NCBI GenBank assembly: GCA_024220505.1 | Contig: JAKZZE010000034.1 | Coordinates: 186,001 to 250,000 of the forward strand | Source of the DNA: Rhizopus arrhizus | Taxonomy: Eukaryota; Mucoromycota; Mucoromycetes; Mucorales; Rhizopodaceae | Length of the DNA stretch: 64,000 nt | Direction of reading: 5' to 3' | Shown: positions 1,784-32,880 of the stretch, one piece after another | Layout: each line of letters opens with the position of its first letter | Numbering within the stretch: the stretch's first letter is position 1 | Notes under the pieces: model-generated | What the model was told of the DNA's origin: nothing | The model's input: the letters and a program-made list of their open reading frames with translations, nothing else | The model's database searches: none | Position numbers and translations under genes: made by a program

Positions 1784-1800
1784 AACACGAAAGAAAGGCT

Positions 1801-1815
1801 GCCCGTTTAGCACAG
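1801..1815 (+). repeat. LINE target-site duplication, copy 1 of 5
   Basis: GCCCGTTTAGCACAG, identical to nucleotides 1-15 of the tRNA-Thr gene at 32809. On its left, 1784-1800 (AACACGAAAGAAAGGCT) matches the 5' tip of a LINE-T1 element, so one more LINE once lay to the left and was lost up to the solo LTR. Confidence 0.9.
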
Positions 1816-2017
1816 ATAAAAGATTTTTGTTTATTAAATGGCAAGGAGACGTTACAGTATGTGTCTCGCCATGAGGTGCAATAAATTTTAGAAAAGATAA
1901 AACAAGATAGGAGAGTAATAAGAGTTAAGAAATAAAAATAAAAATAAAAACTAGACATAGCTAGAAAAAAAAGAAAAGGCAAAGTAAATAAAGAGAAATA
2001 AAGGCAGCAATTAATTG

Positions 2018-3301
2018 TTAATCTTGTACTGATTCAAAGAACAAATAATCGACTGTACTTGACAGTGGCAGTGGGCGAATCTTGTCCAAGAAAAGAGAGC
2101 CAGATGTGTCGATAGACGATCCAACAAATGTGCCTTCGGGAAGGCAAATCTGTTCGATTTCAAGGAGGACTTGACAGACAACAGGCCACCAAAGGGACCA
2201 ACGAGAGAACAGTGCTTGAGATGGATATGCTGGAAGTTTCCTTGGCAACATATTCAGAACATGATCCAAAGGATTGGGTTTGATGTCAGCAGGCAAGTTC
2301 AATCTTTCAGCAACACGGAGACAGGACAAGAGGTGAGCACGAGAGGCATGGATGGGACCACAGCTACAGTCGATAGGACGAGCAGGGAGCCACCCCATAC
2401 GCCATCGAAGGATGCGACTACGGTCAGAGAGGAGCATTGGGATGAAGAACATCGCATCAATGCCAATACTTGGACGACAAGCAGAGAGGAGGACAGGTGG
2501 ATCAGGACGATTCAAGATTCGATGCAGAAGGTCATTGCGGTAAGCGAGCACACCCTGCTTGACATGGACATCGGTAGAAAGATGTGCAAGGCGATCATCA
2601 ACAGAAGTATACCCACCCGTATACTGAGGGTTCAACCATAGAGGGTTTTGCCTCAGCAATGCCGGCCATCGGAAACGGCTCTTGATCGGTGCAGCAGTAA
2701 TGAAGGGAACCAACTTGGCAAGCAGACAATCATCAGGAAGATGGTGGACACGGATAATCATCTTGAGTACCAAAGTATGGGCCCGTACATGCATTGATGG
2801 GGTGCTTGTCAAGTGCTTGAACACCGTGGTAGAGGCACGAGGATGACCACCGAATGCCAGACGAAGACACTGATCTTGAGCACGATCCAGTAGAGCCAGT
2901 TGCTTTTGCAAAAAGGTGCAGATGCACAAACCATACTCGAATCTAGGCCTAATAAAGATAGTGTAGAGACGAGTAGCAGTAAGGCGAGAGAAGCCAGGAG
3001 AGCGGATACCGACAGGCAAAAGGAAACGACGCATAGCAGAGACAGCAGAGGTAACATTCCGATGAATCAGCAGACCTGTAGCGATGGTGCCAGTATCATC
3101 AAATGGGATGCCAAGATAGTTGAAGGTCGACTGAATGGGAATGTCATCACCATACAACTTGAGTTGGGGACCACCAAGAGAGAAAGCAGAGTTGAGCACC
3201 ACACACTTGGCAGGATTCCATCGGCAACCCAAGGAGAAAGAATGTTCTTCAGCTGCCTTAAGAAGACGAGGCATGACTTCAGGTGCTCCTATAAGGACAA
3301 C
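2018..3301 (-). pseudogene. LINE-T1a ORF2, C-terminal part (RT end and zinc motif)
   Basis: This is the 3' part of an endonuclease/reverse transcriptase ORF cut by Gy1. It begins just after the catalytic YADD, continues through the last RT blocks (FNYLGIPFDD) and ends with a C-terminal region holding a Cys-Cys-His-Cys motif (DCSCGPIHASRAHLLSC), usual at the end of many LINE ORF2 proteins. The stop is at 2018-2020. It is about 95% identical by eye to the intact copy at 13422-16922. Removing Gy1 and one ACAAC puts the reading frame back in register with the part at 9296-11517, so the insertion is the only clear lesion. Confidence 0.92.
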
Positions 3302-3879
3302 TGTTATGTTCTGGTAAAGTAATTAAGGTAGCGATAAAAACCAAAGAATACTTTTTGAGACTGAACTTTATTTAAGACAATCTTAATTATTAAAAAGAAA
3401 TCATTACAAAGTCTACTATTTATATTCTTCTATCAGTTGGCGGGTAAATGAGTTGTTATGAGCGTAGATCCAATAATTGACATGTTTGATTGAAGAATGA
3501 TCACTGAATCGATTATGAAAATTTTTAATTCGTTGTTTTATAGATCTTATTGTTCTTTAACTGATCTGGGAGAATTGTCCCGTCTTCATTGAGAGGAAAG
3601 ATATATTTATATGAAATGCCTCCAGTCAGATCATAGTTGACTAGGTACCTGATCCATTATTATTCATTTACAGAAATGATGAATAATAAAGGTCATGACT
3701 TATTTATTGTTCATGTTTACTTTATAGGATGAATCTAGTAGTGATAGTTTTATATAAAAAAGAAGAAGAATATATTTTATTTGATAAAGATTTAAATTAT
3801 TATCTTCTATCAGTTTTAATATACTTCTTTTAGTTGTGATTATTCAATGTCCGTTATGATCAGACGCTGTTCTACAACA
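3302..3879 (-). repeat. Gy1 3' LTR
   Basis: 578 bp, matching 8718-9295 with no difference seen by eye. On the minus strand it contains TATAAATAGTAGAC and TTAAATAAAGTTC, likely promoter and polyadenylation signals. Confidence 0.93.
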
Positions 3880-3899
3880 TAATCCCCTCCCAGGTATAA

Positions 3900-6800
3900 C
3901 TAATACCGTCTAGATCTTTTAGAATTTATATTGCCATTTAATTTATTACTACTTGTTGTAGAAGAGTGGCTATTTTCATTAAGATCTGTTCTGGTCTTTC
4001 GTTTGCCTGTATGAGAAGTATTTATTAACTTCACATTGTTAGATCTTCCTTTATTATTTTGAAGGTCATATTTATATTTAATATCTTCAGGAACTATACC
4101 AACTCTTTGCCAATATTCTGTAATGAATTTAGGATCGGTAAAGTTAGAGGCAGGCTCCCAGGTATCATCGCTCTTATCATAGCCTTTCCATCTGCACTTA
4201 TAAAGATATTTCCCTTTAAGCTTTTTATGTGCTAAAATGGCTTCTACCTGATAGAATTTATTTGTTGATATAACTTCATCTTGTGAGATGAGTTTTAACG
4301 CAGAAGGTGGGTAGTTTTTAGATAACAATTCACCCATTTCATCTTCTAGTACATACGATCCTCCTTGAGTAATTCTTTTTACTTTATAAGGTCCTTCATA
4401 GTTAGGATCTAACTTGTTGGTTTTAATATTTACTTTTACCATTACATAGCTATTTTCAGGGATCGTAATTAGTTTATGTGACGCATCAAACTTTTCCTTC
4501 TGATTGTTTGTTATTATTTTTGTACGTTCATATATGGCAGGGAACACAATCTCCGTCATTCTTTTTATATTGAGAAGGAGTTGTTTATTTATTTCTTCTT
4601 TAGTTGCCTTATTTTTTTCTTTGCTAAAATCTTCAAAGTCATTCATGTTACGACCGTACATTAAAGTGAAGGGTGGCGTCTTAGTACGTTCATTGTGTTT
4701 ACCATTCAAGTAGAGTTGTGTAGAAGGAACATATAAATCCCAGTCTGCTTTAGCACCCTCGATTTGTTTCTTTATTGCATTTACAGCTGTTTGTACCCAA
4801 CGTTCACTTACTCCATTAGCTCTGGGATGATAACTAGATATGAGTCTATGGTCATAACCAGCATTTTCAGCAAGTAATTGCATAAGCTCATTTACAAATT
4901 CACCACCATTATCAGATTGGATTACACGTGGAAAACCATAATGCGAGAATACATCGATTAAAGCTTTTACAATCGTCATAGATTGCTTATCAGGCAAGGG
5001 TTTCAATACACAGTAACGTGTAGCAATGTCAACCATAATCAATAAGTAATTGTTGCCATTCAAGGAAGTTTTCATGGGACCAGCTAAGTCGATGCCCCAA
5101 CTATCTCCAGGTAATGTGGCTGTAATGGGTCTTAGAGGATTATAACCCTTTTTGATTATGTTAAATTGTTGACATGGAATACAACTCTTAACAAGTTCTA
5201 CGGCTTCATTTTTCAGATTGGACCAGTAGATACCTTTACGTTTTAAAGCATGGTAAATTGCATCAGAACCAAAATGTCCTTTAATGTGCTCACGTAGAAG
5301 AAGTAGTTTACGTTCTTCAGGATCCGGAGGTGTCATGTATTCACCTTTGTCTTCACTGGGTAGTTTTACTGCTGCTCTATTCAATAGATGAAGCTTATCC
5401 CCTCCCAGTTCATTGACAGGATCTTCAATTTCATATAGACGAGAAAGTGTGTCAGGGAGAATATTATCTACACCTGGTAAATGAACGACTTTAAAATCAT
5501 ATTGGAGCAGTGTATCGAACCAATTTATGAGCATAGCGTTAGCAATCTTTTGCGTGTGAAGATAAGTGAGTGCCTTATGATCTGTATACAGGGTAAATTT
5601 GTTTCCCCATAAATACTTATGGAACCTCTTCAGAGCATATACAACTGCTAATAATTCTCGCTTAGTAGCTGAATAGTTACGTTCACTTTTAGATAAAGTT
5701 TTAGCTATCATAGAAATGTAGTGTACTTTCCCATTTATCTTTTGATACAGAATTACACCTATACCAACGTTAGAGGCATCGGTAGCGACATAGAAAGTTT
5801 GATTCAAATCAGGGTATGAAAGAATTACATTTTCTAACAATACTTTCTTTAAGTTGTCAAAACATTGTTGGTGTTTATCATTCCATAATTTAATTAATGA
5901 TTTTTCGTTTCTTAAGGCATCCAGTGGAGCTAACAGTGTAGATGCTTTAGGAATATGAGGACGGAAATAATTTATGAGTCCACAGTATCTCATTATATCC
6001 TTTCCAGTCTTGGGGACAGGAAATTCTTGCACATTAGCAACTTTACGAAGGTCAAGAGAAACACCTTTAGGAGATATTCTGAAGCCAAGTAAATTAATTT
6101 TGCTTTGAAAAAATGTACATTTATCAGGATTTAACTTGAGATTTACTTTAGTAAGTTTATCAATTACTTGTTTTAAGTGTTGCTTATGCTCTTCAATGGA
6201 AGTAGATGCTACAACTATGTCATCAACAAAACATTTAGCAAAGGACATGTTTTCTAATGCGATGCTCATAGTTCTCTGCATTACACTGGATACATGCTTT
6301 AGACCAAAAGGAGTACCAACAGGTATATACTGTACAGAGTTCCAAGAGAAAGCTAGTTTATGTGCATGCTCTTCATTCATTTTTAAAGAGTTAAAAGCAG
6401 ATTTAAGATCCAAAGTGGAATATACAGTTGCTCCTTTCAATTCCTCAAATAGCTCAGAAATTTTAGGCAAGGGCATTCTGTCAATTGACTTTAGAAGAGC
6501 ATTAACATGTCTGGGATCATGGCACACACGGTAACCAGTTACTTCACCCTTAGCATTGGTCTTCTTTACTACAGTCAAAGCTGAGTTCCACTCGGTATTA
6601 GCAGGAGCTCTCTTGATTACACCATTCTCCAGCCATTCATCTATCTGATCTTGTACTATCTTATGGTATGCTAAAGGCACAGGATAGGGACGTCGATAAG
6701 ATGTGACACCTTCAGGAGTTTCAATCGAGACAACAGATTCCGGTATAGTACAAAAGGAACCTTTAGGTATTGCTTGATTTGATTGAATTAATGGTTTAAT

Positions 6801-8684
6801 ATAGTTTAATGCTTGTTGATATTCATTAGATGAACCAGCGGGGCAGTTCTCTAATTCAGTCATCTCATCATCAACTTTATTCAAGAGTTCACTAAAGTCA
6901 TTGAATTTATGTTCAGGTACTTTGGAATTGTCTAAAGATACTTTACTATCATCCCATTTGTAAGGAAGACCAGTAAGACCAATACCAAGTTTACTCATAA
7001 AATCAGTACCAATACTCATATCATGATCATTTGTTAAACTCATTACTTCAAAGGTATGATTAAAACTTTTTCCATTACACTTAATGTTTACTTCAGTTAA
7101 ACCAATTCTCTTAATAGTAGAGTTACAGTCAGCTAACTTTATGACATTATTATTTTTAGGAGGAATAATTAAAAAATTATTTTGGAAACAAAATTTTTTA
7201 TTTATAGAAGAAACATTTGCTCCAGTATCCAAGATCGTGATGGCTTTTCTATTGTTTGCAAGTATGGGAAAAGTTATAGAATTATTATTAGTACTTTTAA
7301 AGTCTCGAGTAACTATTAATTCTTTTTCTTTTTTAGACTTACAGTCAAGTGCCATACGGTTTAGAGGGCTGTTTATTTCACATTCATCCTCTTCATCGGA
7401 TACATTATTATTTGTAGTTCTTACGGCCATTCGGTTTATCTGTACATTATCCTTATTGTTACTATTACTATTTTTAGCAACTAGATACTCATTGCACTTA
7501 TGACCTTGGAACCATTCTTTGCGGCAGTAAGTACATGGCTTGGTTTTAGATTTTCCCTTATTTGCCATGGGTGTCTTATACTTGTTGGTCAATACTTTAC
7601 TAGTTCCAAAAGGAGCTTTACTAGTATTGCCAGCATGACGGGTAGTACGTTCATCTTCGTTCATAGGACGAGCACGTTTATGAGGGGTCTTGGCAGCAAA
7701 AGCAGAATCTTCACCAGAGGCAAGTACCAAGTCGATTATTTGAGTAATCGAACTAGGTAAACGAGAACCAAAGTGAGAGGATATCGCTAATTGCGCGACA
7801 GACTTGACAGATGCTTTTAAAGAAGCAAAGTAAGTGACAGCAAGAAGAGTGCTGTCTTCCATACCAGCTTCACGGCGCATCTTCTGGAAACGATTTGAGT
7901 ACTCCCGATTACTCTCGTAGGTGCCTTGACACATGGAACCGACTTCAACCATCAACAAGAACTTGCGGTACGGGGTATCGAAGTGATCCAAGATCATAGG
8001 GCGGACTTGCTTCCAAGAGAAACTTTTTTCTAGCAGCGCTTCCCTACACCAAGAGACTTGTTCGGGGTTCATACAAAGCGGCAGCAAACGTTCCCAATTG
8101 GAGTTCAAGGCTTGACCATGAGCACGTAAGACAGTTTTAAAAGTGTTACAAAAATCGTAAGCACTGTCGTAGCACTCAGCCTTTTTCCTCCAAATAGCAT
8201 CACCTTTTAACTGCAATGTAGGCAAATCATTTGGGACCACCAATCGAAGAGAATGATTACTTGGACCATCACTTGGGGTCTTCACTTCTTCGAACATAGC
8301 AGAAAAGGATTTAAGAGCTTCCTTTGCCCTGTTCACCTTTTGTTCACACTCCTTGAACTTTTCATGGGCAGTAAGAGCAGCAGCAGGATCAGAATCATCT
8401 TCATTAAGAACCATATACTCCATGAAGTGTATCTTGGCTTGGTTCTTCCAATTTTCAATGAGGCGAAGCTTGCGACTTACAATGTCAGCAGTGGATTCCA
8501 TTACTTTAGGAGTAGCAGTAGCAGTATCAGTGTCCATGGGGGTAGGTTCAGAAGCATACTTGCTAGCCATACTTCCTTGAGGTTCAGAAAGAGGAGAAGT
8601 GATGTTAAAGACCACAGAGGTTTGACTTTCTGGGGTGCTTGTTACAACAGGATCAATAATGGGAGTTTCTTGAGGAGTAGACAT
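3900..8684 (-). CDS. Gy1 Gag-Pol polyprotein with chromodomain
   Basis: A single ORF of about 1594 residues fuses Gag and Pol with no frameshift. The start is the ATG at 8682-8684; the frame stays open upstream only through a TTG. Counting from eight residues before that ATG, order and rough positions are: Gag to about 380; zinc knuckle CTYCRKEWFQGHKC (392-405); aspartic protease ILDTGANVSS (492-501); RT with catalytic CFVDD (826-830); RNase H with VATDAS (974); integrase HHCC (H1141-C1179), then D in GIDLAG (1207), D in QSDNGGEF (1266) and E in GVSERW (1302); GPY module YEGPYKVKR; chromodomain YKCRWKGYDKSDDTWEPAS near 1500; basic tail KRSRRY. The protein copies the element RNA and integrates the cDNA. 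The chromodomain is known in this clade to bias integration toward modified histones. Confidence 0.95.
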   Translation of the reverse strand: MSTPQETPIIDPVVTSTPESQTSVVFNITSPLSEPQGSMASKYASEPTPMDTDTATATPKVMESTADIVSRKLRLIENWKNQAKIHFMEYMVLNEDDSDPAAALTAHEKFKECEQKVNRAKEALKSFSAMFEEVKTPSDGPSNHSLRLVVPNDLPTLQLKGDAIWRKKAECYDSAYDFCNTFKTVLRAHGQALNSNWERLLPLCMNPEQVSWCREALLEKSFSWKQVRPMILDHFDTPYRKFLLMVEVGSMCQGTYESNREYSNRFQKMRREAGMEDSTLLAVTYFASLKASVKSVAQLAISSHFGSRLPSSITQIIDLVLASGEDSAFAAKTPHKRARPMNEDERTTRHAGNTSKAPFGTSKVLTNKYKTPMANKGKSKTKPCTYCRKEWFQGHKCNEYLVAKNSNSNNKDNVQINRMAVRTTNNNVSDEEDECEINSPLNRMALDCKSKKEKELIVTRDFKSTNNNSITFPILANNRKAITILDTGANVSSINKKFCFQNNFLIIPPKNNNVIKLADCNSTIKRIGLTEVNIKCNGKSFNHTFEVMSLTNDHDMSIGTDFMSKLGIGLTGLPYKWDDSKVSLDNSKVPEHKFNDFSELLNKVDDEMTELENCPAGSSNEYQQALNYIKPLIQSNQAIPKGSFCTIPESVVSIETPEGVTSYRRPYPVPLAYHKIVQDQIDEWLENGVIKRAPANTEWNSALTVVKKTNAKGEVTGYRVCHDPRHVNALLKSIDRMPLPKISELFEELKGATVYSTLDLKSAFNSLKMNEEHAHKLAFSWNSVQYIPVGTPFGLKHVSSVMQRTMSIALENMSFAKCFVDDIVVASTSIEEHKQHLKQVIDKLTKVNLKLNPDKCTFFQSKINLLGFRISPKGVSLDLRKVANVQEFPVPKTGKDIMRYCGLINYFRPHIPKASTLLAPLDALRNEKSLIKLWNDKHQQCFDNLKKVLLENVILSYPDLNQTFYVATDASNVGIGVILYQKINGKVHYISMIAKTLSKSERNYSATKRELLAVVYALKRFHKYLWGNKFTLYTDHKALTYLHTQKIANAMLINWFDTLLQYDFKVVHLPGVDNILPDTLSRLYEIEDPVNELGGDKLHLLNRAAVKLPSEDKGEYMTPPDPEERKLLLLREHIKGHFGSDAIYHALKRKGIYWSNLKNEAVELVKSCIPCQQFNIIKKGYNPLRPITATLPGDSWGIDLAGPMKTSLNGNNYLLIMVDIATRYCVLKPLPDKQSMTIVKALIDVFSHYGFPRVIQSDNGGEFVNELMQLLAENAGYDHRLISSYHPRANGVSERWVQTAVNAIKKQIEGAKADWDLYVPSTQLYLNGKHNERTKTPPFTLMYGRNMNDFEDFSKEKNKATKEEINKQLLLNIKRMTEIVFPAIYERTKIITNNQKEKFDASHKLITIPENSYVMVKVNIKTNKLDPNYEGPYKVKRITQGGSYVLEDEMGELLSKNYPPSALKLISQDEVISTNKFYQVEAILAHKKLKGKYLYKCRWKGYDKSDDTWEPASNFTDPKFITEYWQRVGIVPEDIKYKYDLQNNKGRSNNVKLINTSHTGKRKTRTDLNENSHSSTTSSNKLNGNINSKRSRRY

Positions 8685-8717
8685 ATTGCGATAAAGTTTT
8701 GAATTCAAAAAGTAAAA

Positions 8718-9295
8718 TGTTATGTTCTGGTAAAGTAATTAAGGTAGCGATAAAAACCAAAGAATACTTTTTGAGACTGAACTTTATTTAAGACAATCTT
8801 AATTATTAAAAAGAAATCATTACAAAGTCTACTATTTATATTCTTCTATCAGTTGGCGGGTAAATGAGTTGTTATGAGCGTAGATCCAATAATTGACATG
8901 TTTGATTGAAGAATGATCACTGAATCGATTATGAAAATTTTTAATTCGTTGTTTTATAGATCTTATTGTTCTTTAACTGATCTGGGAGAATTGTCCCGTC
9001 TTCATTGAGAGGAAAGATATATTTATATGAAATGCCTCCAGTCAGATCATAGTTGACTAGGTACCTGATCCATTATTATTCATTTACAGAAATGATGAAT
9101 AATAAAGGTCATGACTTATTTATTGTTCATGTTTACTTTATAGGATGAATCTAGTAGTGATAGTTTTATATAAAAAAGAAGAAGAATATATTTTATTTGA
9201 TAAAGATTTAAATTATTATCTTCTATCAGTTTTAATATACTTCTTTTAGTTGTGATTATTCAATGTCCGTTATGATCAGACGCTGTTCTACAACA
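8718..9295 (-). repeat. Gy1 5' LTR
   Basis: 578 bp, the upstream LTR for the minus-strand ORF. TSD ACAAC follows at 9296-9300. Confidence 0.93.
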
Positions 9296-11517
9296 ACAAC
9301 ATCGTCAGCATATAGTAGACAGTTCAACCAGAGGCCATCGAATTCACGTTGTGGGTTTGAGCTGTAATATCTTGCCGAGATTGGTAAGCGAACAGAACGA
9401 AGCAAAGCTGGGAGGCTGTTGATATAGATCGAATACAAGAACGGAGAAAGGATTGAACCTTGAAGCACACCAGTTCTTGGCCAGAAGGCAGGAGAGGTGA
9501 AACCAGAAACCAGGACTTCTATACTTACTTTGTCAAACAGACATTGGAGTAGTCCAAGTAGAGCAGGAGAGATGTAGGTCTCTAGAGCACGCCGTATGAT
9601 TGCTCGATCAACTGTGTCATAAGCAGACTTGATATCCAAGAAGGCCAAGATAGGAGGTTCACCATGATGATCGATAGCATGCTGTCGACAGAGCTCATTC
9701 AGACAGAGCGCTTGATCCAGAGCACTACGACTATGACGGAAGCCGCCTTGGACAGGGTCGAGTGGTGGAGCGGTGTCTTCAAGAGTTGTCTGTAAGCACA
9801 GTTCAAAGAGCTTTCGCAATACCGATGTCAGGCTGATTGGTCGGTAGTTTGCTGGTTGCAGTGGATCACCTTTCTTGTAGATCGGGACCACTTGAGCAGT
9901 GCACCATGCAGCAGGGACAGTAGACCATATCCAGCACAGACGAAAGAGCAAGGTCAGGACAGGGACCAGATCATCAGCAATTGGCAATAGCACCTCTGTT
10001 CGTAAGTGATCACAGCCTGGAGCTTTGCGACACGAGAGACGTTTAAGAAGCGCAGTGCGCACCGTTTCTGTATCTACTGGACACGGATCATCTTCCGGAC
10101 AATGAGGACCAGAGGGGATCGGTGGTGCATTGTACCTAGTCGATGGTAAGGACGAGCCAGAGAACACTTGCTTCAAGTGATTAGCCATGGTTATAGCCGC
10201 AACAGTAGGACCCTCCGGATGGGAATAAGAAGGAGCCAGTGTGCGGTTTCGTCTAATTCTCTTGATAGTAGCAGTAGTGTCAGACAGCGGACCAGAAGAC
10301 AGAGTTTCGCAAAATTGCTTCCAAGTAGTACGGCGACGACAGTACAAGGCACTTTTGAACCGCTGGGCAGCAACTTCATATTCTTGCCATCGAAGTACTT
10401 TGTTGATACCAACAGTCCTTTTCCACTTGCGACGGGCTTGTTCACGACGGTCAAACAGAGCTTGAAGATCATCAGTCCAGAACCAGGCATTGTCAGAACC
10501 ACGAGGCTTCTTTTGACCGACAGAGTCATCCAGACAAGAGTGAATGATGGAGGTCAACTCGTTGGCAAGGAGATCCATGTCGGGTGCTGTGCTATTGGTA
10601 GATGATGCATATGTTGTCAAGCATTCACGAAACGGTTGGATACGATCCCGGAAGAGGTCAACATAGAGGCAGTCAGGCTCGGTCAGTCTACTCAGATTCC
10701 ATAAACGACGAGGATGAGCAGGTGGAGGCGGTGGTGGAGGCAGGACACAGGACAACGACACAGGATGATGGTCTGAACCAAGAGAGAGGTCTTCATGTAC
10801 AAGCATCTTTGGATTCACCAGTTGTTGTGAACTGAGAAACAAGTCGATGACACTGTTGAAGTGTTCACCGGTGGTAGTATTGACACGGCCTTGAGCACAA
10901 TAGGTTGGGATACCATAGGCTAGTTGAGTATTCCAACATGTCATTCCATTCTCCAGGATCCAGCTGAACAACTTGATGCCACGAGTGGTAGTTCTTGAAT
11001 CACCAAGAAGGTGTTGGTGTCGAGCGTTAAAGTCACCGCACACAATCATGTTGGTCTGTGATGGATGTGTTTGGTGAGGAAGCCCATCGAGTATATCCAC
11101 TGCTTCGAGGTCAGAGAGCGATGGCGGCAGATAGACACAGTGAACAAGCAAGGTGGAGACTTGACAGCTGAGCACATAAGGATTGTCAGAGGGAAAGTGA
11201 GTGACAGGATAGGGACAATCAGGATTGACAAGCAGACTGATGCCCATCTGTCCTCGACTTTGACCCTCAAGCGGTACGCCATAGGTATGGTATTGTTGCC
11301 ATAAAGTCATAAGCCTGAGTGGAGACAATAACCAGGTTTCAGTAATAAAAATGAGTGACGATGTAAGGAGCGAATTGGTGGTTTGATCAACAGTGTAGCG
11401 ATTACAGCCATTGGCATTCCATAGGGTCATAGTAAGCATATTGTTGTTTGTACAAGTACGGGTATCTTGGTTGGGCATAGGCATATTTAAATCTTCAATG
11501 GGTGAGACACTCATCAT
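9296..11517 (-). pseudogene. LINE-T1a ORF2, N-terminal part (endonuclease and RT)
   Basis: This is the 5' part of ORF2, from ATG ATG at 11517 down to the Gy1 insertion. It holds an apurinic-like endonuclease: LWNANG, FITETWL (Glu), CGDFNARH (Asp/Asn) and LGSDHHPVSL. The reverse transcriptase follows (KAPGCDHLRTE, IYKKGDP, NYRPISLTS, FLDIKSAYDTVD, GVLQGSILSPFLY) up to LLYADDVV, where the break occurs. A proline run (PPPPPPP) separates the domains. ORF1 and ORF2 overlap as ATGA: the ORF1 stop TGA (11514-11516) lies within the ORF2 start, suggesting stop-restart translation. The encoded tail after YADDVV comes from the Gy1 LTR and is not LINE protein. Confidence 0.93.
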
Positions 11518-12971: not shown

Positions 12972-13198
12972 GAGAGATCTTGAAATGTCAATATTTAAAC
13001 GATTCGTATTTTGGATATAGCTTGACGAATACGCTTCTATTTGGGTTGTAGTTTGTAATAAAGTTGTTTTGGATGTTGTATCTATCTTGCTAATGATGGA
13101 TGGATGCGATTTAACAGATGGATGTAAAAGTTATTTGTGCGGATAAACGTTTAACCAGGTGCAAATTGGTGTAACGGTTAAGAACACGAAAGAAAGGC

Positions 13199-13213
13199 GC
13201 CCGTTTAGCACAG
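13199..13213 (+). repeat. LINE target-site duplication, copy 2 of 5
   Basis: GCCCGTTTAGCACAG between the 5' end of LINE-T1a (left) and the 3' end of LINE-T1b (right). Identical to tRNA-Thr nucleotides 1-15. Confidence 0.93.
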
Positions 13214-22925: not shown

Positions 22926-22976
22926 GTTTGAGAATAGCGTAGTAATAATAGAGTAAAGAGAATTCGTCAAAAAAAA

Positions 22977-23391
22977 TGATTTATCCAAGAATAGAAAGGA
23001 ACAAGAGAGGACGAGACTCGATAAAGAGATTGTTTTATTTAATAAGAAAATGATACTCTATTTATACTTTTCATACACGGATAATATTTCATGTCATGGA
23101 TTAATAATTAATGAGTATGATATAACTGATGACAAATAGATAATGGTTACGTGTTCTTCCATTGTTATCTTTGTCACCATAAGCATTTATCCATAGAATA
23201 CTCGTATATGATTGACTGCGATTGACTGTGATTTAGTTCCTGGATTTAATATAATTTAACCGTGCAATTACGCAGCATCTTATCCTTAATGAAGATTATC
23301 CGAATTAACCTGTAGCCTATCTATTGGATATATTTTACATGTAGCTTATTAATACTGTTTTCATATCGAGTTATGAATGATGGATACATCA
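22977..23391 (-). repeat. Gy2 5' LTR
   Basis: 415 bp; TSD TTGGC follows at 23392-23396. The oligo-T leader of the minus-strand RNA begins immediately at 22976. Confidence 0.93.
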
Positions 23392-24334: not shown

Positions 24335-24561
24335 GAGAGATCTCGAAATGTCAATATTCAAACGATTCGTTTTTTGGATATAGCTTGACGAATACGCTTC
24401 TATTTGGGTTGTAGTTTGTAATAAAGTTGTTTTGGATGTTGTATCTATCTTGCTAATGATGGATGGATGCGATTTAACAGACGGATGTAAAAGTTATTTG
24501 TGCGGATAAACGTTTAACCAGGTGCAAATTGGTGTAACGGTTAAAAACACGAAAGAAAGGC

Positions 24562-24576
24562 GCCCGTTTAGCACAG
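24562..24576 (+). repeat. LINE target-site duplication, copy 3 of 5
   Basis: GCCCGTTTAGCACAG between the 5' end of LINE-T1b and the 3' end of LINE-T2, a different family. Confidence 0.93.
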
Positions 24577-24846
24577 TCGAAAATTTATGTTTTTATTTAA
24601 AGATTAATGCAATCGACCTTTAGGCCATTATTTGCTAATCAAAGTACAAAAAAGAGAATATACATGATACGAAAAAAAGTCCTAGCGACCATTTGATGGA
24701 CCAAAAAAGAGGAGAGAGAAGAGAAGCCAAAAGAGAAATCAAAAGAGCTAATTTGTAGGATATCATGTTCGTGGTCTCCTCCGCATCGTGCACTAAGTGG
24801 TTGTGGCAGTGGGAGGTAGAAGCCAGAGGAACAATCAAAACACATT

Positions 24847-27800
24847 TCACCGAGAACGAGAAGTCGACCTTTCATACCAGAGTAATCCAGGTGAAGGATC
24901 ATTGGTGTAATCACCATCAGGGTTGCAAAGCTGGTCAAAGTGCCAAAGGATGGTACAAAGGCTGACCCAGAACGGAGGACAACGAGCAGAAGGAGAAACA
25001 GGCAACAAAGACAAGCAATAGTCAATGTGCAGCTCGGTAGAACCAGCAGGAGGAAAAGGAAGACAACACCAAAGAGCCGATGGAACCTGAGGACAGACCA
25101 TGAGATGGGCACGAGTGGTATGACCAAACAGACAAGCACAAGGACGAGGATCACCAGGCAGCCAACCCATACGCCAACGTATAAGCCGACTACGATCAGC
25201 GCGAGAAGCAGGAACATAGAGGATTGGATCCACTCGCAGTACAGGACGACATGCCTTGATCAAGACTTGAGAAGTCGAAGCCAGAAACTGGTCAAACCCT
25301 TGCTGACGATACGCATGTAACCAGGTTTTAAGCCGAGAAGGAGCTGTAACTTCTGGTGGATGATCGAGCACAATGCGTCGAGAGCGAAGAGTTGATAGTA
25401 GTGACGATGGCAGCGAAGAAGAAAGCAGCGACAGGAGGCAGTCATCAGGTAAAGTCTGGACACGGAGACAAAACTTCAATACCAAGGTATCAGCACGGAA
25501 ACGCATCGACGGTAGGTTACAGATGTGCCGAAGCACAACCGTCGACGAGGTCTTGTGGCCACCAACGATCAGACGCAGACACCGACTTTGAGCGCGCTCT
25601 AGCTCGTCATAGTCCTTTTTGAGCAGCTTCGAGATGGCTAGGCCATACTCTAACTTGGGACGTACAAACATAGCATAGAGACGAGAAGAGAACAGCAGCG
25701 AGAAACCAGATCGATTGGCACCAATAGCAGACAGTTGAGCCATCTTGAGCTGAGCACCAGGCTTGCGATGAGCGACCAGACGAGACGGAGAGATACCATT
25801 ACGGGTGAATGGCACGCCAAGATAAACGAACTCGTCGACAGACGGTATGTCTTCATCATAGAGTGTGAGACGGACGTATCTTGACGACGTCGGATCTGGA
25901 GCATTAAGGATGGCACATTTGGTAGGACTCCATCTGTAGCCGAGCACTTGTGAATGGATTTGGGCCAGGTCAAGCATCTGTTTGACTTCGCTTGCAGAAC
26001 CGAGAATAGCCACATCATCAGCATAAAGGAGAGAATTGATGGCTGTGGGTGACAAAGACAGAGAGGAGACATCCAAAGTCGGACCAAAAGGAAGACCAGG
26101 AGAGAGACCAAGACCAGCACCAGGAGGACCAGAAGGAGACAAGGACGAGACCATTGCTGTGGTACGCGTGGCAGCAGAACGAAGAAGAGCAGGTAGCGTA
26201 TTGATGTAAATCGAGTACAGGTGCGGACTCAAGACAGAGCCTTGAAGTACACCTGTACTCGGAGTGAATGGTATCGAGACTTGATTAGACATCAGGACCG
26301 AAATCGAAACATCATCAAAGAGATGAGCCAAGACAGAGACCAAAGCAAAAGGAGCGGAGACAGCCAAGAGTGATTGCCATATGACACGTCTGTCGACGGT
26401 ATCATAGGCAGCCTTGATATCAAGAAAAGCCACGACAGGGAAATGACACTTTCGACGATAGTACTCCTGTATCAAGTCATGCAAGCAGAGGGCTTGGTCA
26501 AGAGCACTTCGCTGTGGACGGAAACCACCTTGAGCAATGTCCAGTGGAGGCGAGACATCTTCTAAATGTGGAAAGAGACACATCTCAAACAGCTTTCGGA
26601 TGATGGACGTCAAGGAGATCGGCCTGAAGTTTGACGGTTGATGAGGATCGCCCTTCTTGTAGATAGGCACGACCTGCGCATGACGCCAAAGAGAAGGAGT
26701 GTAAGACCATTGGCAGCAGATATCAAAGAGACGAGCCAAGATAGCAGCTACTTGTTTGCGTATGGGAATAAGCATCTCTGTACGAAGATGATCAGAGCCA
26801 GGAGCTTTGCGCAGAGGAAGTCGACGCATTGTGTCAGCAACAGTGTCAGCCGAAAAAGAAGAAAGACCAGAACCAGAACCAAGACCAGCACCAAGACCAA
26901 GACCAAGACCAGAACCAGATGGGTCATCCTCAGAAAAGGATCCAAGATCAAAAGGGACATGATCATCAGACGATGGAAGAGGAGGAGGACGGGTGGACGG
27001 CAGACCAGAGCCAGAGTAGACAGATGCAAGATGATCCCGCATAGCATTGGCACCAGCGACAGGGCCATCAGGATGAGCATATGAGACTTGAGGACGACGA
27101 CGGTTATGGACTTGCTTGACCCTACGCACCGCAGAAGAAAAGTCGCCACGAGCGAGGGAGTCACAAAAGGCACGCCAAGATTCTCGTTTAGCTCGCTTGA
27201 CAGCCGTGCGGAAACGGACATGAGCTTCTTGATGGAGACCCCACCAGTAAGCTTTGTCAATCCCAAGAGACCAACGCCACTTACGGTAGAGCCAGTCGCG
27301 ACGATCAGCCAATGCCTGTAGTTGTGAGGTCCAAAACTTCTTCCATTGCTTGGGTCGAGAAACACGAGATCCAACAGACTTGTCCAGAGCAGAGTAGATG
27401 GCCGCATTGAGTTCATCGTTGAGATGGTCAATGGGTGGACGCGTTGGCGGTGGACTTGAGCACAGCTGTTGAAGCTGGTCAAGCAAAGCAGCAGACAAGG
27501 AACCAAAGGTAGACACATACAGCTTCTGGACTTCTGGTTCTTTCAACCGAGATAAATTCCAAAGACGACGAACTTGACCAGACGGAGGAGAAGAAGACTG
27601 TGTGGAATGGACCACAGGGACCGAGTACTCAAAAGAGAGCGACATCAGTTTGTGATCTGACCCCAAAGAAAGATCCAAGGCAACCGAGATACTTGCTGAA
27701 CGAACCAGTGGCATGTTGGTGATGTAGTAGTCTACAATGCTGCTTACCTCAGCATGACCACGGCAAGTCAGGTATGTTGGAATACCATAGGCAAGTGTCT

Positions 27801-28455
27801 TGTTCAGGATGTTAAGACCATGGTCGTCGCACCAACGACGAAGGACAGAGCTACGCATGTTAGTACGAGAGTCACCGACGAGACGACCAAGACGAACATT
27901 CAGATCACCGCAGATGATCGTATCGTCAGTGAGTGGCAGAGAATCCAGAACAGACTGTACCTCAGCAGTGGACAAAGAAGGAGGCAAGTAGAGACAGATG
28001 AGCCGTAGAGAACGACCCAACTGCAGACCAAGAGCATACTTACAGTTCACAGGGAACTCAACCACAGGAAGTGGACACCGAGGAGAGACCAAGGCAGAGA
28101 CACCCATAGAACCACGATACTGACCTGCAACTGGAGAGCCATAGAGATGGAACTGCTGCCATGAGGTCGGAAGGCGAGCAGGAGGAAGCAACCAGGTTTC
28201 GGTAATAAAGACCAACGAGAACGACTGGCAGTGACGGAGGAGGTCATCGACTGTGGAAGCCTGGAGACCGTTGGCATTCCACAAGCCGATGGTGAGCGGA
28301 ATAGATGAAGTTGATGATGTAGAACGAGAGGATGAACCATGGAAGCCATGAGAACCAAGAGAAACCAAAGGAGAGGAAGGAGTTGACGAATCTGGGACCA
28401 TACCAGATGTAGAGGCCGAGGATACATTATAATGACAAGTATTACTACTCATCAT
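24847..28455 (-). CDS. LINE-T2 ORF2: endonuclease-reverse transcriptase, intact
   Basis: 1202 residues. The start ATGATG at 28455 shares one base with the ORF1 stop (TAATG), so translation is probably coupled. Endonuclease: LWNANGLQ, FITETWLLPP, CGDLNVRLGR, LGSDHKLMSL. RT: KAPGSDHLRTEML, YKKGDPHQPSNFRPISLTS, FLDIKAAYDTVDRR, GVLQGSVLSPHLYS, LLYADDVAIL, YLGVPFTRNG. The C-terminal zinc-type motif is CACLFGHTTRAHLMVC. A Gly/Leu/Ser-rich stretch (about 26870-26925, GLGLGLGAGLGSGSG) lies just before the RT, and a second low-complexity insert lies before YADD. It is clearly related to T1 ORF2 along its length but well diverged. Confidence 0.95.
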   Translation of the reverse strand: MMSSNTCHYNVSSASTSGMVPDSSTPSSPLVSLGSHGFHGSSSRSTSSTSSIPLTIGLWNANGLQASTVDDLLRHCQSFSLVFITETWLLPPARLPTSWQQFHLYGSPVAGQYRGSMGVSALVSPRCPLPVVEFPVNCKYALGLQLGRSLRLICLYLPPSLSTAEVQSVLDSLPLTDDTIICGDLNVRLGRLVGDSRTNMRSSVLRRWCDDHGLNILNKTLAYGIPTYLTCRGHAEVSSIVDYYITNMPLVRSASISVALDLSLGSDHKLMSLSFEYSVPVVHSTQSSSPPSGQVRRLWNLSRLKEPEVQKLYVSTFGSLSAALLDQLQQLCSSPPPTRPPIDHLNDELNAAIYSALDKSVGSRVSRPKQWKKFWTSQLQALADRRDWLYRKWRWSLGIDKAYWWGLHQEAHVRFRTAVKRAKRESWRAFCDSLARGDFSSAVRRVKQVHNRRRPQVSYAHPDGPVAGANAMRDHLASVYSGSGLPSTRPPPLPSSDDHVPFDLGSFSEDDPSGSGLGLGLGAGLGSGSGLSSFSADTVADTMRRLPLRKAPGSDHLRTEMLIPIRKQVAAILARLFDICCQWSYTPSLWRHAQVVPIYKKGDPHQPSNFRPISLTSIIRKLFEMCLFPHLEDVSPPLDIAQGGFRPQRSALDQALCLHDLIQEYYRRKCHFPVVAFLDIKAAYDTVDRRVIWQSLLAVSAPFALVSVLAHLFDDVSISVLMSNQVSIPFTPSTGVLQGSVLSPHLYSIYINTLPALLRSAATRTTAMVSSLSPSGPPGAGLGLSPGLPFGPTLDVSSLSLSPTAINSLLYADDVAILGSASEVKQMLDLAQIHSQVLGYRWSPTKCAILNAPDPTSSRYVRLTLYDEDIPSVDEFVYLGVPFTRNGISPSRLVAHRKPGAQLKMAQLSAIGANRSGFSLLFSSRLYAMFVRPKLEYGLAISKLLKKDYDELERAQSRCLRLIVGGHKTSSTVVLRHICNLPSMRFRADTLVLKFCLRVQTLPDDCLLSLLSSSLPSSLLSTLRSRRIVLDHPPEVTAPSRLKTWLHAYRQQGFDQFLASTSQVLIKACRPVLRVDPILYVPASRADRSRLIRWRMGWLPGDPRPCACLFGHTTRAHLMVCPQVPSALWCCLPFPPAGSTELHIDYCLSLLPVSPSARCPPFWVSLCTILWHFDQLCNPDGDYTNDPSPGLLWYERSTSRSR

Positions 28456-29426
28456 TATAATGATCCAAAGCTGGAGCGAGAGGCAGGACGGTCTTGATCA
28501 TACTGATCCAGAAGCATTTCATCGTCAGGTTGGTCACGATGGCGCGGGAAGGCAGGACGGTCTTGCTTGGCAGCCAAGACTTCAGAGACAGCCTCATCAG
28601 ACACCATGGCATTGGCCAAAAAGAAACGAGAGACAGCAACAGCAACAGGATAGCGCAAGCGCTCAAGGGTACGAAGACAACGCTCGTTGGAAATATGCGA
28701 CATCTTTTCTTGACGTACCTCAAGAGACGCAGAAGAGAAAGCAGGGTCAGCAACGTTGTCCGGATCTAAGGGATCGAACTGATCAAGGACCTTGATCTTT
28801 GCTTTCTCCAGCAAAGAGACGAGAGCAGGCTTGTACTGGAGATGGACAAGCAGACCAACAACGGAGTGAGCTGGGAATGAAACATCTAACACCCGCCAGG
28901 TGTCAGCACCCAAGCGACCAAGACGACGACGAGCTTCAGTGTATGACATTTTGCGAGATCTAGGTATATACACGTATTCGAATCCTTGTTCACCTGTAAC
29001 AGGCTGGAAGCCTCTTGCAGCAGCGGCACGACGACGGAGTTTGTTCTTGGAACCACGTGAAGCCACAGTAGCCCAAGATGAAGCAGCAGTACCCAAAGAG
29101 GGCGAAGAAACGGTCTCTTTAGCACCATTTTGAGGAGCAGGAGAAGAAGCAGCGGCAGTTGAACTTGGGGTGTCCCTAGGAGTTCCGGCAGATTGTGCGG
29201 CAAGCTGTGCACGTAAAGAATTGATCTCATTGGCCTGACTGTTGGTCAGTTCCAAAAGGCGAGCGTTTTCGAGCTGGAGCTGCTCTAAGGCACTCAAGCG
29301 GGCAGTAAGGTCTTCGTAGGCTGCAGCCAAAGACTGAAGAGTGACGTCAGCATTTGAATTTGCTGAGTTTACTGAGGCAGCGGCGTTGGGGATCCTTGAA
29401 CCCAAGTTTTTTCTTAAGGGTCCCAT
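28455..29426 (-). CDS. LINE-T2 ORF1 protein (RNA-binding type)
   Basis: About 323 residues from the ATG at 29424-29426 (MGPLRKNLGS); the frame is open six codons further up only through a TTG. It contains a coiled coil (RLSALEQLQLENARLLELTN), a Ser/Ala-rich linker, a basic patch (SRGSKNKLRRRAAAARG) and a C-terminal domain parallel to T1 ORF1: FEYVYIPRSRKMSY, RVLDVSFPAHSVVGLLVH, DQFDPLDPDNVADPAF. It lacks the Val-Gln-Pro repeats of T1. The stop TAA overlaps the ORF2 start. Confidence 0.85.
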   Translation of the reverse strand: MGPLRKNLGSRIPNAAASVNSANSNADVTLQSLAAAYEDLTARLSALEQLQLENARLLELTNSQANEINSLRAQLAAQSAGTPRDTPSSTAAASSPAPQNGAKETVSSPSLGTAASSWATVASRGSKNKLRRRAAAARGFQPVTGEQGFEYVYIPRSRKMSYTEARRRLGRLGADTWRVLDVSFPAHSVVGLLVHLQYKPALVSLLEKAKIKVLDQFDPLDPDNVADPAFSSASLEVRQEKMSHISNERCLRTLERLRYPVAVAVSRFFLANAMVSDEAVSEVLAAKQDRPAFPRHRDQPDDEMLLDQYDQDRPASRSSFGSL

Positions 29427-29627
29427 CTTTTTGACAAACTTCAAACTGATAAAAAGCGATGTAAAGTTGACGTATTCAAAAAATTAAAGGTACCAAAAGG
29501 TGTATTTTTGAAAGATGAATCGAATGGTGTAAAAATTGGAGACGGATGGCTTGATTTGGCGGAGTTATCGGCTTTTTTAAAAAATAAACAAGTTTACCTT
29601 TTTAACCAAAAGCGAAAGAAAAAAAAA

Positions 29628-29642
29628 GCCCGTTTAGCACAG
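29628..29642 (+). repeat. LINE target-site duplication, copy 4 of 5
   Basis: GCCCGTTTAGCACAG between the 5' end of LINE-T2 and the 3' end of LINE-T1c. Confidence 0.93.
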
Positions 29643-32600
29643 ATAAAAGATTTTTGTTTATTGAATGGCAAGGAGACGTTACAGTATGTGTCTCGCCATG
29701 AGGTGCAATAAATTTTAGAAAAGATAAAACAAGATAAAAGAGTAATAAGAGTTAAGAAATAAAAAATAAAAATAAAAACTAGACATAGCTAGAAAAAAAA
29801 GAAAAGGCAAAGTAAACAAAGAGAGATGTTGACGGCAATTAACAATCGTTAATCTTGTACTGATTCAAAGAACAAATAATCGACTGTACTTGACAGTGGC
29901 AGTGGGCGAATCTTGTCCAAGAAAAGAGAGCCAGATGTGTCGATAGACGATCCAACAAATGTGCCTTCGGGAAGGCAAATCTGTTCGATTTCAAGGAGGA
30001 CTTGACAGACAACAGGCCACCAAAGGGACCAACGAGAGAACAGTGCTTGAGATGGATATGCTGGAAGTTTCCTTGGCAACATATTCAGAACATAATCCAA
30101 AGGATTGGGCTTGATGTCAACAGGTAGATTCAATCTTTCAGCAACACGGAGACAGGACAAGAGATGAGTACGAGAGGCATGGATGGGACCACAGCTACAG
30201 TCGATAGGACGAGCAGGAAGCCACCCCATACGCCATCGAAGGATGCGACTACGGTCAGAGAGGAGCATTGAGATGAAGAACATCGCATCAATGCCGATAC
30301 TTGGACGACAAGCAGAGAGGAGGACAGGTGGATCAGGACGATTCAAGATTCGATGCAGAAGGTCATTGCGGTAAGCGAGCACACCCTGCTTGACATGGAC
30401 ATCAGTAGAAAGATGTGCAAGGCGATCATCAACAGAAGTATACCCACCTGTATACTGAGGGTTCAACCATAGAGGGTTTTGCCTCAGCAATGCCGGCCAT
30501 CGGAAACGGCTCTTGATCGGTGCAGCAGCGACAAAGGGAACCAACTTGGCAAGCAGACAATCATCAGGAAGATGGTGGACACGGACAATCATCTTGAGTA
30601 CCAAAGTATGGGCCCGCACATGCATCGATGGAGTACTTGTCAAGTGCTTGAACACCGTGGTAGAGGCACGAGGATGACCACCGAATGCCAAACGAAGACA
30701 CTGATTTTGGGCGCGATCCAGTAGAGCCAGTTGCTTTTGCAAAAAGGTGCAGATGCACAAACCATACTCGAATCTAGGTCTAATGAAGATAGTGTAGAGA
30801 CGAGTAGCAGTAAGGCGAGAGAAGCCAGGAGAGCGGATACCGACAGGCAAAAGGAAGCGACGCATAGCAGAGACAGCAGAGGTAACATTCCGTTGGATCA
30901 GCAGACCAGTAGCGATGGTGCCAGTATCATCAAATGGGACGCCGAGATAGTTGAAGGTAGATTGAATGGGAATGTCATCACCATACAACTTTAGCTGGGG
31001 ACCACCAAGAGAGAAAGCAGAGTTGACCACCACACACTTGGCAGGATTCCATCGGTAACCCAAGGAGAAGGAGTGTTCTTCAGCTGCCTTGAGAAGACGA
31101 GGCATGACTTCTGGAGCACCTATAAGGACAACGTCATCAGCATATAGTAGACAGTTCAACCAGAGGCCATCGAATTCACGTTGTGGATTTGAGCTGTAAT
31201 ATCTTGCCGAGATTGGTAATCGAATAGAACGAAGCAGAGCTGGGAGGCTGTTGATGTAGATGGAATACAAGAACGGTGACAGGATTGAACCTTGAAGCAC
31301 ACCAGTTCTTGGCCAGAAGGCAGGAGAGGTAAAACCAGAAACCAAGACTTCTATACTTACTTTGTCAAACAGACATTGGAGTAGTCCAAGTAGAGCAGGA
31401 GAGATGTAGGTCTCTAGAGCACGCCATATGATTGCTCGATCAACGGTATCATAAGCAGACTTGATATCCAAGAAGGCCAAGACAGGAGATTCACCGTGAT
31501 GATCAATAGCATGCTGTCGACAGAGCTCATTCAGACAGAGCGCTTGATCCAGAGCACTACGACTATGACGGAAGCCGCCTTGGACAGGGTCGAGTGGTGG
31601 AGCGGTGTCTTCAAGAGTTGTCTGCAAGCACAGTTCAAAGAGCTTTCGCAATACCGATGTCAGGCTGATCGGTCGATAGTTTGCTGGTTGCAGTGGATCA
31701 CCCTTCTTGTAGATTGGGACCACTTGAGCAGTGCACCATGCAGCAGGGACAGCAGACCATATCCAGCACAGACGAAAGAGCAAGGTCAGGACAGGAACCA
31801 GATCATCAGCAATTGGCAATAGCATCTCTGTTCGTAAGTGATCACAGCCTGGAGCCTTGCGACGTGAGAGACGTTTGAGAAGTGCAGTGCGCACCGTTTC
31901 TATATCCACTGGACACGGATCATCTTCAAGACAATGAGGACCAGAGGGGATCGGTGGTGCATTGTACCTAGTCGATGGTAATGACGAGCCAGAGAATACT
32001 TGCTTCAAGTGATTAGCCATGGTTGTAGCCGCAACAGTGGGACCTTCCGGATGGGAATAAGAAGGAGCCAGTGTGCGATTGCGTCTAATTCTCTTGATAG
32101 TAGCAGTGGTGTCAGACAGCGGACCAGAAGACAAAGTTTCGCAGAATTGCTTCCAAGTAGCACGACGACGACAGTACAGGGCACTTTTGAACCGCTGGGC
32201 AGCAACTTCATATTCTTGCCATCGAAGTACTTTGTTGATACCAACAGTTCTTTTCCACTTGCGACGGGCTTGTTCACGACGGTCAAACAGAGCTTGAAGA
32301 TCATCAGTCCAGAACCAGGCATTGCCAGAACCACGAGGCTTCTTTTGACCGACAGAGTCATCCAGACAAGAATGAATGATGGAGGTCAACTCGTTGGCAA
32401 GGAGATCCATATCGGGTGCTGTGTTATTGGTAGATGATGCATATGTTGTCAAGCATTCACGAAACGGTTGGATACGGTCCCGGAAGAGGTCAACATAGAG
32501 GCAGTCAGGCTCGGTCAGTCTACTCAGATTCCACAAACGACGAGGATGAGCAGGTGGTGGCGGTGGTGGAGGCAGGACACAGGACAATGATACAGGATGA

Positions 32601-32808
32601 TGGTCTGAACCAAGAGAGAGGTCTTCATGTACAAGCATCTTTGGATTCACCAGTTGTTGTGAACTGAGAAACAAGTCGATGACACTGTTGAAGTGTTCAC
32701 CGGTGGTAGCATTGACACGGCCTTGAGCACAATAGGTTGGGATACCATAGGCTAGTTGAGTATTCCAACATGTCATTCCATTCTCCAGGATCCAGCTGAA
32801 CAACTTGA
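29643..32808 (-). mobile_element. LINE-T1 copy c, 5'-truncated, joined to the tRNA gene
   Basis: Contains the 3' UTR (29643-29848) and most of ORF2. The 5' truncation falls inside the endonuclease and abuts tRNA nucleotide 1 without extra bases. ORF1 and the 5' UTR are missing, as expected for incomplete reverse transcription. Flanks are the 15-base tRNA duplication. Confidence 0.93.
29849..32808 (-). pseudogene. LINE-T1c ORF2, N-terminally truncated
   Basis: Open from 32808 to the stop at 29849, but without a start or the first half of the endonuclease. It starts at the equivalent of residue 181 (KLFSWILENGMTCWN). The frame stays open into the tRNA only through a GTG, which is chance. RT motifs are intact (FLDIKSAYDTVD, GVLQGSILSPFLY, LLYADDVVLIG), as is the C-terminal zinc-type motif (DCSCGPIHASRTHLLSC). 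It is nearly identical to copy b. Dead on arrival rather than decayed. Confidence 0.93.
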
Positions 32809-32880
32809 GCCCGTTTAGCACAGTGGTAGTGCGTCAGTCTTGTAAACTGAAGGTCGGTTGTTCAATCCAGCCAACGGGCA
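32809..32880 (+). tRNA. tRNA-Thr, anticodon UGU
   Basis: 72 bases that fold perfectly by hand. The acceptor stem is GCCCGTT/AACGGGC with discriminator A, the D stem GCAC/GTGC, the anticodon stem TCAGT/ACTGA around loop CTTGTAA (anticodon TGT), and the T stem GGTTG/CAGCC around TTCAATC. No intron; CCA is not encoded. The A box (TAGCACAGTGG) and B box (GGTTGTTCAATCC) are present, and a T-run terminator follows. It decodes ACA. Its first 15 bases are the target duplicated at every LINE junction to the left, so its natural 5' flank is now LINE sequence. Confidence 0.95.

Follow-up and report, generated by a model that had tools for sequence, protein, structure and literature searches.

In the genome of the fungus Rhizopus arrhizus (Mucorales), long interspersed nuclear elements (LINEs) of two families, here called T1 and T2, are stacked one after another on the 5′ end of a tRNA-Thr(UGU) gene. 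The stretch analyzed (the window) comprises 64,000 nucleotides (nt) of contig JAKZZE010000034.1 (C28:186001-250000) in assembly GCA_024220505.1, which has 50.26 Mb in 41 contigs; window positions are counted from its first letter. Very probably, this array and others like it were built by site-specific LINEs with an apurinic/apyrimidinic (AP) endonuclease, which land in the 5′ part of tRNA genes by serial insertion.

The 15-mer GCCCGTTTAGCACAG is found five times in the window, at 1801, 13199, 24562, 29628, and 32809. Every copy is exact and stands where the preliminary description of this stretch had placed it, compared with a shuffle expectation of 0.07 when up to two mismatches are allowed. 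Four of the copies (1801..1815, 13199..13213, 24562..24576, and 29628..29642, all on the plus strand) are LINE 3′ boundaries and, from the 15-mer search and the reading of the junctions, target-site duplications; the first, a copy of tRNA-Thr nt 1–15, marks the distal end of the array. The fifth is nt 1–15 of the tRNA gene itself (32809..32880, plus strand), which ARAGORN calls as an intact tRNA-Thr(TGT), so that these bases are both the target and the last duplication copy. Between the duplications lie four LINEs on the minus strand, in the order T1, T1, T2, T1 from the left (BLAST against the window units). Both the tRNA gene and the four antisense LINEs had been proposed beforehand, and the ORF2 (second open reading frame) of the LINEs indeed combines an Exo_endo_phos/Exo_endo_phos_2 endonuclease with RVT_1. 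T1 copy A (1816..13198) has its ORF2 in two pieces (2018-3274 and 9256-11517) and its ORF1 at 11514-12971; it is interrupted by a Ty3/gypsy chromodomain retrotransposon on the same strand (3302..9295), with long terminal repeats (LTRs) at about 3302-3879 and 8718-9295. T1 copy B (13214..24561) carries an ORF2 of 1166 amino acids with AP-type endonuclease and reverse transcriptase (RT) at 13422-16922, and is likewise interrupted by a minus-strand Ty3/gypsy chromodomain element (17439..23394, LTRs about 17439-17856 and 22977-23394), beyond which its 5′ part runs from about 23395 to 24561. T2 (24577..29627) is uninterrupted, with ORF2 at 24847-28455 (1202 amino acids) and ORF1 at 28455-29444, and the 5′-truncated T1 copy C (29643..32808) adjoins the tRNA.

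Genome-wide, GCCCGTTTAGCACAG has 29 copies, which occur only in four arrays (13 on C4, five on C28, four on C39, and seven on C40), whereas its reversed control word has none. All 29 sites are accounted for by four tRNAs, 18 T1 3′ ends, and seven T2 3′ ends, and TGGTAGTGCG, the remainder of the tRNA, follows at four of them. One tRNA-Thr(UGU) gene ends each of the four clusters (ARAGORN); the window gene is whole and matches the other three without a difference across 71 nt. With up to three substitutions allowed in the C4, C28, and C39 clusters, a single extra match appears, with three substitutions and on the opposite strand of C28. The largest arrays hold up to 12 LINE units on a single tRNA gene. 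The T1 3′ untranslated region (UTR) has 18 genomic matches, all of which end exactly at GCCCGTTTAGCACAG. The preliminary description had anticipated that the 3′ ends of both families would nearly always abut nt 1–15 of tRNA-Thr(UGU): this is borne out by T1 (18/18 ends found) but applies to T2 in part only, with seven of 27 junctions at tRNA-Thr(UGU), 17 at tRNA-Cys(GCA), and three elsewhere.

The junctions share one geometry. LINEs are oriented opposite to the tRNA: the 5′ end falls on tRNA nt 1 or a few bases from it, and the 3′ end is joined to a distal copy of tRNA nt 1 to 13–15, while the tRNA stays whole. The 3′ ends are constant and lack poly(A) at the Thr sites (18/18 T1 and 7/7 T2), as do the 20 further T2 3′ ends save for point differences a few bases inside. 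The 5′ junctions take six forms in 16 T1 copies and four forms in six T2 copies, and no such 5′ end is present at seven of the 29 sites. This combination of constant, tail-less 3′ ends and variable 5′ junctions points to separate insertion events. Of the four tRNA-Thr(UGU) genes, three have a LINE 5′ end directly upstream, and the window gene has a truncated LINE there.

The second target of T2 was recognized from its 3′ UTR, with the best 40 of 88 candidates scored: 28 of the 41 rows obtained reach the 3′ end, 27 of these junctions were read (C26:509427 was left out), and 13 rows were unused. Outside the Thr arrays, 17 of the 20 junctions read adjoin GAGGGATTAGCTCAG, the tRNA-Cys word, and three adjoin other sequence, so that 24 of 27 lie at tRNA-Thr or tRNA-Cys. 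The three off-target junctions share with the targets only CAG at the junction, and since CTG stands next to the T2 end at all 27 junctions, these included, it could be contributed by the LINE. A pattern of GAGGGATTAGCTCAG plus the D arm has five genomic matches (C13, C19, C22, C23, and C26), in all cases at the tRNA-facing end of T2 copies; the one on C13 is confirmed as tRNA-Cys(GCA), the only one of the five so confirmed. On C13, C22, C23, and C26, the tRNA lies about 5.05 kb from the first T2 3′ end, which equals a whole T2. A sixth site with the Cys word (C4:1789219) is 2.7 kb from the contig end, and its tRNA, if any, would therefore lie beyond the contig. Genes with the Thr(UGU) word (4/4) and the Cys(GCA) word (5/5) are completely occupied. 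A further family shares 58 bp of the T2 3′ UTR and forms array-like series at C1:2437110-2452612 (L132), C4:182802-194534, and on C8; at the C1 locus, a T2-like LINE 5′ end stands beside a sequence that looks by eye like tRNA-Gly; ARAGORN did not call a tRNA in this short stretch.

Relatives of T1 elsewhere in the genome have ORF2 proteins 62–66% identical to that of T1 and show the same layout at tRNAs. These were sought with T1 ORF2 (best 40 of 1279 candidates scored) and from a tRNA list (best 63 of 2878 candidates scored), so that copy and tRNA numbers are lower bounds. The related strict families sit at Lys, Phe, Met, Thr(CGU), Gln, and Ser tRNAs. In six stretches chosen from the tRNA list, the LINE 5′ end adjoins a tRNA called by ARAGORN in every case (two Lys(UUU), Phe(GAA), Met(CAU), Asn(GUU), and Gln(UUG)). 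Among 13 stretches chosen by ORF2 distance only, five show the LINE 5′ end next to a tRNA (Ser(CGA), two Ser(AGA), Gln(UUG), and Thr(CGU)). In two further small stretches, too short for ARAGORN, a LINE 5′ end precedes Phe and Met tRNA sequence. At the 3′ ends, the Lys/Phe/Met/Thr(CGU) family has 16 of 22 rows that reach the end at ≥86% identity (all read; six weak rows unused), and 14 of these 16 junctions are of tRNA type, namely 12 verified tRNAs and two tRNA-like GCCTTCTTGGCTCA. All five junctions used for the Gln family (of six rows) are of tRNA type (three Gln and two Pro-like GGTTTCTTGGTGTA), as are all ten used for the Ser family (eight verified Ser and two tRNA-like), for which ten of 23 rows have ≥90% identity and the others were taken as other families. 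For T1, T2, and these three strict families together, 65 of 76 junctions have verified tRNA 5′ sequence and six a tRNA-like word.

Occupancy by the related families can be gauged from two words. The Ser(AGA) word has 11 genomic copies, of which four are LINE 3′ ends, four are their likely tRNA-side partners (same strand, at distances of 5.6 to 22 kb; two of the four verified by ARAGORN), and three stand alone. The Met word has 13 copies: five LINE 3′ ends, four partners, and four alone, three of these in the tRNA list. Provided that the lone words are tRNA genes, occupancy is partial at Ser(AGA) (4/7) and Met (4/8). At C4:683700-684887 (L059, L115), two different LINE families are stacked on one tRNA-like target, GCCTTCTTGGCTCA. 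In addition, a CTTTCTTTCG-like pyrimidine-rich sense motif opens T1, T2, and related LINEs near the tRNA start (L001-L029, L068-L073, L080-L086, and L130-L133). It is kept although the ORF2 proteins are merely 42–66% identical, and candidate roles are a LINE start site or an upstream element of the tRNA.

The proteins place these elements among the LINEs. Pfam finds RVT_1, Exo_endo_phos, and Exo_endo_phos_2 in one ORF (ORF2), where endonuclease and RT motif residues are conserved. An AlphaFold2 model (predicted local distance difference test score 90) shows the fold of L1 ORF2p with a TRAS1/L1/R1-type endonuclease, and the endonuclease folds of TRAS1 and R1Bm match it as well as that of L1 does; TRAS and R1 are both assigned to the R1 clade. 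A sequence search of PDB returned L1 and R2 for the RT, and no match of note for the endonuclease piece alone. ORF1 lacks a Pfam match, and Pfam found no RNase H in the window LINEs. The T1 and T2 ORF2 proteins are 42% identical; the best named matches come from Rhizopus, Mucor, and Phycomyces, and relatives occur across Mucorales, whereas none was confirmed in the viral contigs searched. With RT and AP endonuclease in one ORF, target-site duplications with variable or truncated 5′ ends, and copies concentrated at few sequences, T1 and T2 are sequence-specific non-LTR retrotransposons of the AP-endonuclease type.

The junctions suggest how insertion may proceed. The endonuclease would first nick the tRNA-sense strand after nt 13–15, at the 3′ edge of the A box, a position that may shift by up to 3 nt if the LINE end and the target share bases. 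Target-primed reverse transcription is established for other LINEs, and here the 3′-OH at the nick would prime reverse transcription of a tail-less RNA, with a second nick presumably made on the other strand near or opposite tRNA nt 1. The resulting 13–15-bp duplication would restore a complete tRNA with its internal promoter. Such a restored gene would again be a target, and each new copy would separate the tRNA further from its old upstream flank, so that the youngest would lie beside the tRNA. A possible signal for the RT is a hairpin that can form in eight LINE 3′ ends of T1-like families (T1, Lys, Gln, Ser, and Asn), about 19–28 nt from the 3′ end, with nine or ten of 10 pairs and compensatory changes at four positions. 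Its pairs were picked as best fit and were misplaced by two MAFFT alignments, and it is weak in the Gln family, where 121 of 1000 shuffles did equally well.

The order of units within the arrays bears on serial insertion. T1 and T2 units are interspersed. When units were ranked by hand from the tRNA, the 10 interrupted units among 26 lay toward the distal side, with a mean relative rank of 0.69 (p 0.006 by permutation within arrays; the test was conceived once the arrays had been seen). Among 11 T1 copies compared from three arrays (C40 and interrupted copies left out), those at C4 ranks 1 and 2, C28 rank 1, and C39 rank 2 form a young group, 99.2–100% identical, whereas the other seven are 96.4–99.1% identical to each other and 95.6–97.3% to the young group. 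Judged from sequence, the tail-less constant 3′ ends, the variable 5′ junctions, the mixture of T1 and T2, and the young, tRNA-proximal T1 group indicate serial insertion. A plain age gradient by private substitutions was considered and rejected: it is not monotone and is clear only for the young group on the tRNA side.

Several observations weigh against site-specific serial insertion, or against its generality. Eight of the 13 distance-chosen stretches have no tRNA; in seven of these the LINE 5′ motif is absent (not reached or interrupted), and L079 (C35) has the motif but no tRNA call. Five of the 76 strict-family junctions are off-target (L104-L106, L108, and L116). The Asn-like family (11 of 24 rows at ≥91% identity, 10 read) is looser, with four of 10 junctions recognizable (Asn, Met, and two Pro-like) and a cut near nt 7–8. 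A further type, counted outside the 76 junctions and found at C35:208895, C4:684265, and C3:1278836, is tRNA-like at one of its three junctions (L059, but not L053 or L129). No counterpart of the 3′ hairpin was seen in T2. Private substitutions show no steady increase away from the tRNA (C4 rank 3 has the most), and the arrays are thus not simple clocks; moreover, the "interrupted" status of the C40 units was taken from spacing and not from sequence. Finally, the nicks and the priming are deduced from the junctions alone.

LTR elements have used the same neighborhood. At the distal end of the window array, an LTR terminus in TG orientation reaches to 1783 and is followed by a 17-nt relic of a T1 5′ end (1784..1800, by junction reading). 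Comparable TG-starting sequences cut the LINE 5′ end after 10–17 nt at five of 25 internal Thr junctions (window 1783; L012, L013, L025, and L028); at least the one in the window is an LTR terminus (cf. the LTR at 3302). Recurring TG termini are also present in 24 of 62 flanks of the other families and T2 (L047-L127), in most cases some 10 bp from where the tRNA used to start; this survey covered 62 of 64 flanks (L089 and L091 left out), and its LTR words were chosen after the flanks had been seen. Most simply, LTR elements would have entered just upstream of the tRNA at a time when the LINE in question was its neighbor, and the following LINE would then have come to lie between the LTR elements and the tRNA. 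LTR-like termini of a few recurring families about 10–17 bp upstream of tRNA starts or their duplicates occupy a Ty3-like position, which is shared with the LINEs. The right side of the window tRNA (33975-62178) is likewise packed with Ty3/gypsy elements, which run in either direction; with the settings used, no LTR pair was found for the Ty3 element there.

How the LINEs find their sites can be explained in another way. The machinery of RNA polymerase III (Pol III), with TFIIIB and TFIIIC, may guide them as it does TRE5-A or Ty3, with the endonuclease adding little specificity. This is a possible but rather unlikely explanation. It is consistent with the fact that nearly all strict targets are Pol III genes cut at the A box, and with the TG termini about 10–17 bp upstream of the same tRNA starts, as for Ty3-like guidance of LTR elements; in addition, the CTG at the T2 junctions, being possibly the LINE's own, is no proof of target reading. 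However, each family keeps to a subset of tRNAs that share bases at the cut: T1 uses only Thr(UGU) (18/18), the Ser family mostly ..CCGAG, the Gln family ..GTGTA, and the Lys/Phe/Met family ..GCTCA. General factors alone would not sort tRNAs by their cut bases. Pol III guidance concerns site finding and is compatible with serial insertion, and a combination of the two is possible.

Growth of the array by unequal crossing-over or tandem duplication of one LINE-plus-target unit is highly improbable. Units do stand head to tail with the same 15-bp spacer, as this process would leave them. However, T1 and T2 alternate despite their divergence, truncation points and 5′ junction bases differ between units, and copies without a single difference are found on separate contigs (C4 rank 1 and C39 rank 2, along their full 3.7 kb), whereas the neighbors at C4 ranks 2 and 3 are 95.8% identical. 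On these three grounds, unequal crossing-over was ruled out as the origin of the arrays. An assembly artefact, in which repeats around tRNA genes were collapsed or misjoined, had been feared in the preliminary description and suits a repeat-rich region with arrays known from the assembly only, but is scarcely credible, as the same architecture recurs at three more tRNA-Thr(UGU) loci, five tRNA-Cys loci, and other tRNAs, inside contigs of 0.5–2.4 Mb and with locus-specific unit order and junctions.

Comparisons with known systems refer to the parts of the cited papers that were available. LINEs related to NeSL are specific for tRNA genes, namely NeSL-1_TV for tRNA-Pro, LIN15_SM for tRNA-Arg, and LIN25_SM for tRNA-Glu (Kojima and Jurka, 2015; PMC4640811). 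The preliminary description knew of no LINE that cuts inside a tRNA gene and builds arrays in a fungus; its novelty is narrowed by these published cases to fungi, for which no case was found in the papers searched. NeSL-related LINEs have a fixed site in a tRNA gene like those of Rhizopus, but NeSL is counted among the restriction-like-endonuclease clades (PMC4640811), whereas the Rhizopus LINEs have an N-terminal AP-type endonuclease and a fungal host. The same paper gives Tx1 and R1 as AP-endonuclease groups with fixed targets, and names tRNA genes as LINE targets in general with no clade specified in the part available. The Rhizopus LINEs have the AP endonuclease and fixed site in common with Tx1- and R1-clade LINEs, and are likened to them by these features only. 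In dictyostelids, TRE5 elements insert about 50 bp upstream of tRNA genes and TRE3 elements downstream, and NLTR-A of D. purpureum lies 2–6 bp upstream of the mature tRNA; NLTR-A and NLTR-B carry RNase H (PMC5006619; PMC5911963). These elements are bound to many tRNA genes, as are the Rhizopus LINEs, and NLTR-A of D. purpureum has the nearest position found. However, the available text describes them by distance from the tRNA and mentions no duplication of tRNA bases, whereas the Rhizopus LINEs duplicate 13–15 nt of the tRNA and have their 5′ end at or a few nt from tRNA nt 1; their families also keep to given tRNAs, unlike TRE and NLTR elements. Other elements that target tRNA loci are Dewa, in a tRNA-Leu spacer, and the Dada DNA transposons, in tRNA genes and with families that likewise differ in the tRNA used (PMC3706591). 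Dewa lies in the spacer and Dada is a DDE DNA transposon, whereas the ORFs of the Rhizopus LINEs encode RT/endonuclease and an ORF1 product of no recognized Pfam family.

Within the same host group, LTR (Ty3/gypsy) elements were reported near tRNA genes of Rhizopus oryzae, with LINEs making up 3.78% of the assembly and no target given for them in the part available (Ma et al., 2009; PMC2699053). That report shares the tRNA neighborhood with the present case, but the elements it names there are LTR elements and not LINEs. According to the accessible part of a 2018 review, the target specificity of fungal retrotransposons, including LINEs, was not fully elucidated and Pol III targeting was likely to be prominent, an expectation that the Rhizopus LINEs fit. 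No report of fungal LINEs inside tRNA genes was recognized among the matches listed from the open-licence PMC literature (subscription papers, preprints, and Repbase lie outside this scope). As far as these sources go, what is new here is the presence of AP-endonuclease LINEs on tRNA 5′ ends, with self-restoring insertion and with families that share out the tRNAs of one genome.

A broader history is conceivable but doubtful: an old radiation of Mucorales LINEs may use the tRNA A box, with families tuned to different tRNAs and a duplication from nt 1 that averts harm, and the LINE 5′ terminus may have become the new promoter or leader of the tRNA, on which the host depends. Against such a role of the 5′ terminus, the LINE upstream of the window tRNA is truncated and lacks a CTTTCTTTCG-like motif. 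Serial insertion itself extends the target range of AP-endonuclease LINEs to tRNA genes of a fungus, and the related families on different tRNAs offer a natural series for studying how LINEs choose their sites. The alternation of LINE and LTR insertions at one tRNA can still be read from the arrays. Each insertion restores its own target together with an essential gene, which explains how a 90-kb array is tolerated, and a parasite can thereby multiply without breaking a gene that its host needs. Because the landing site survives insertion, such elements could also serve gene delivery.

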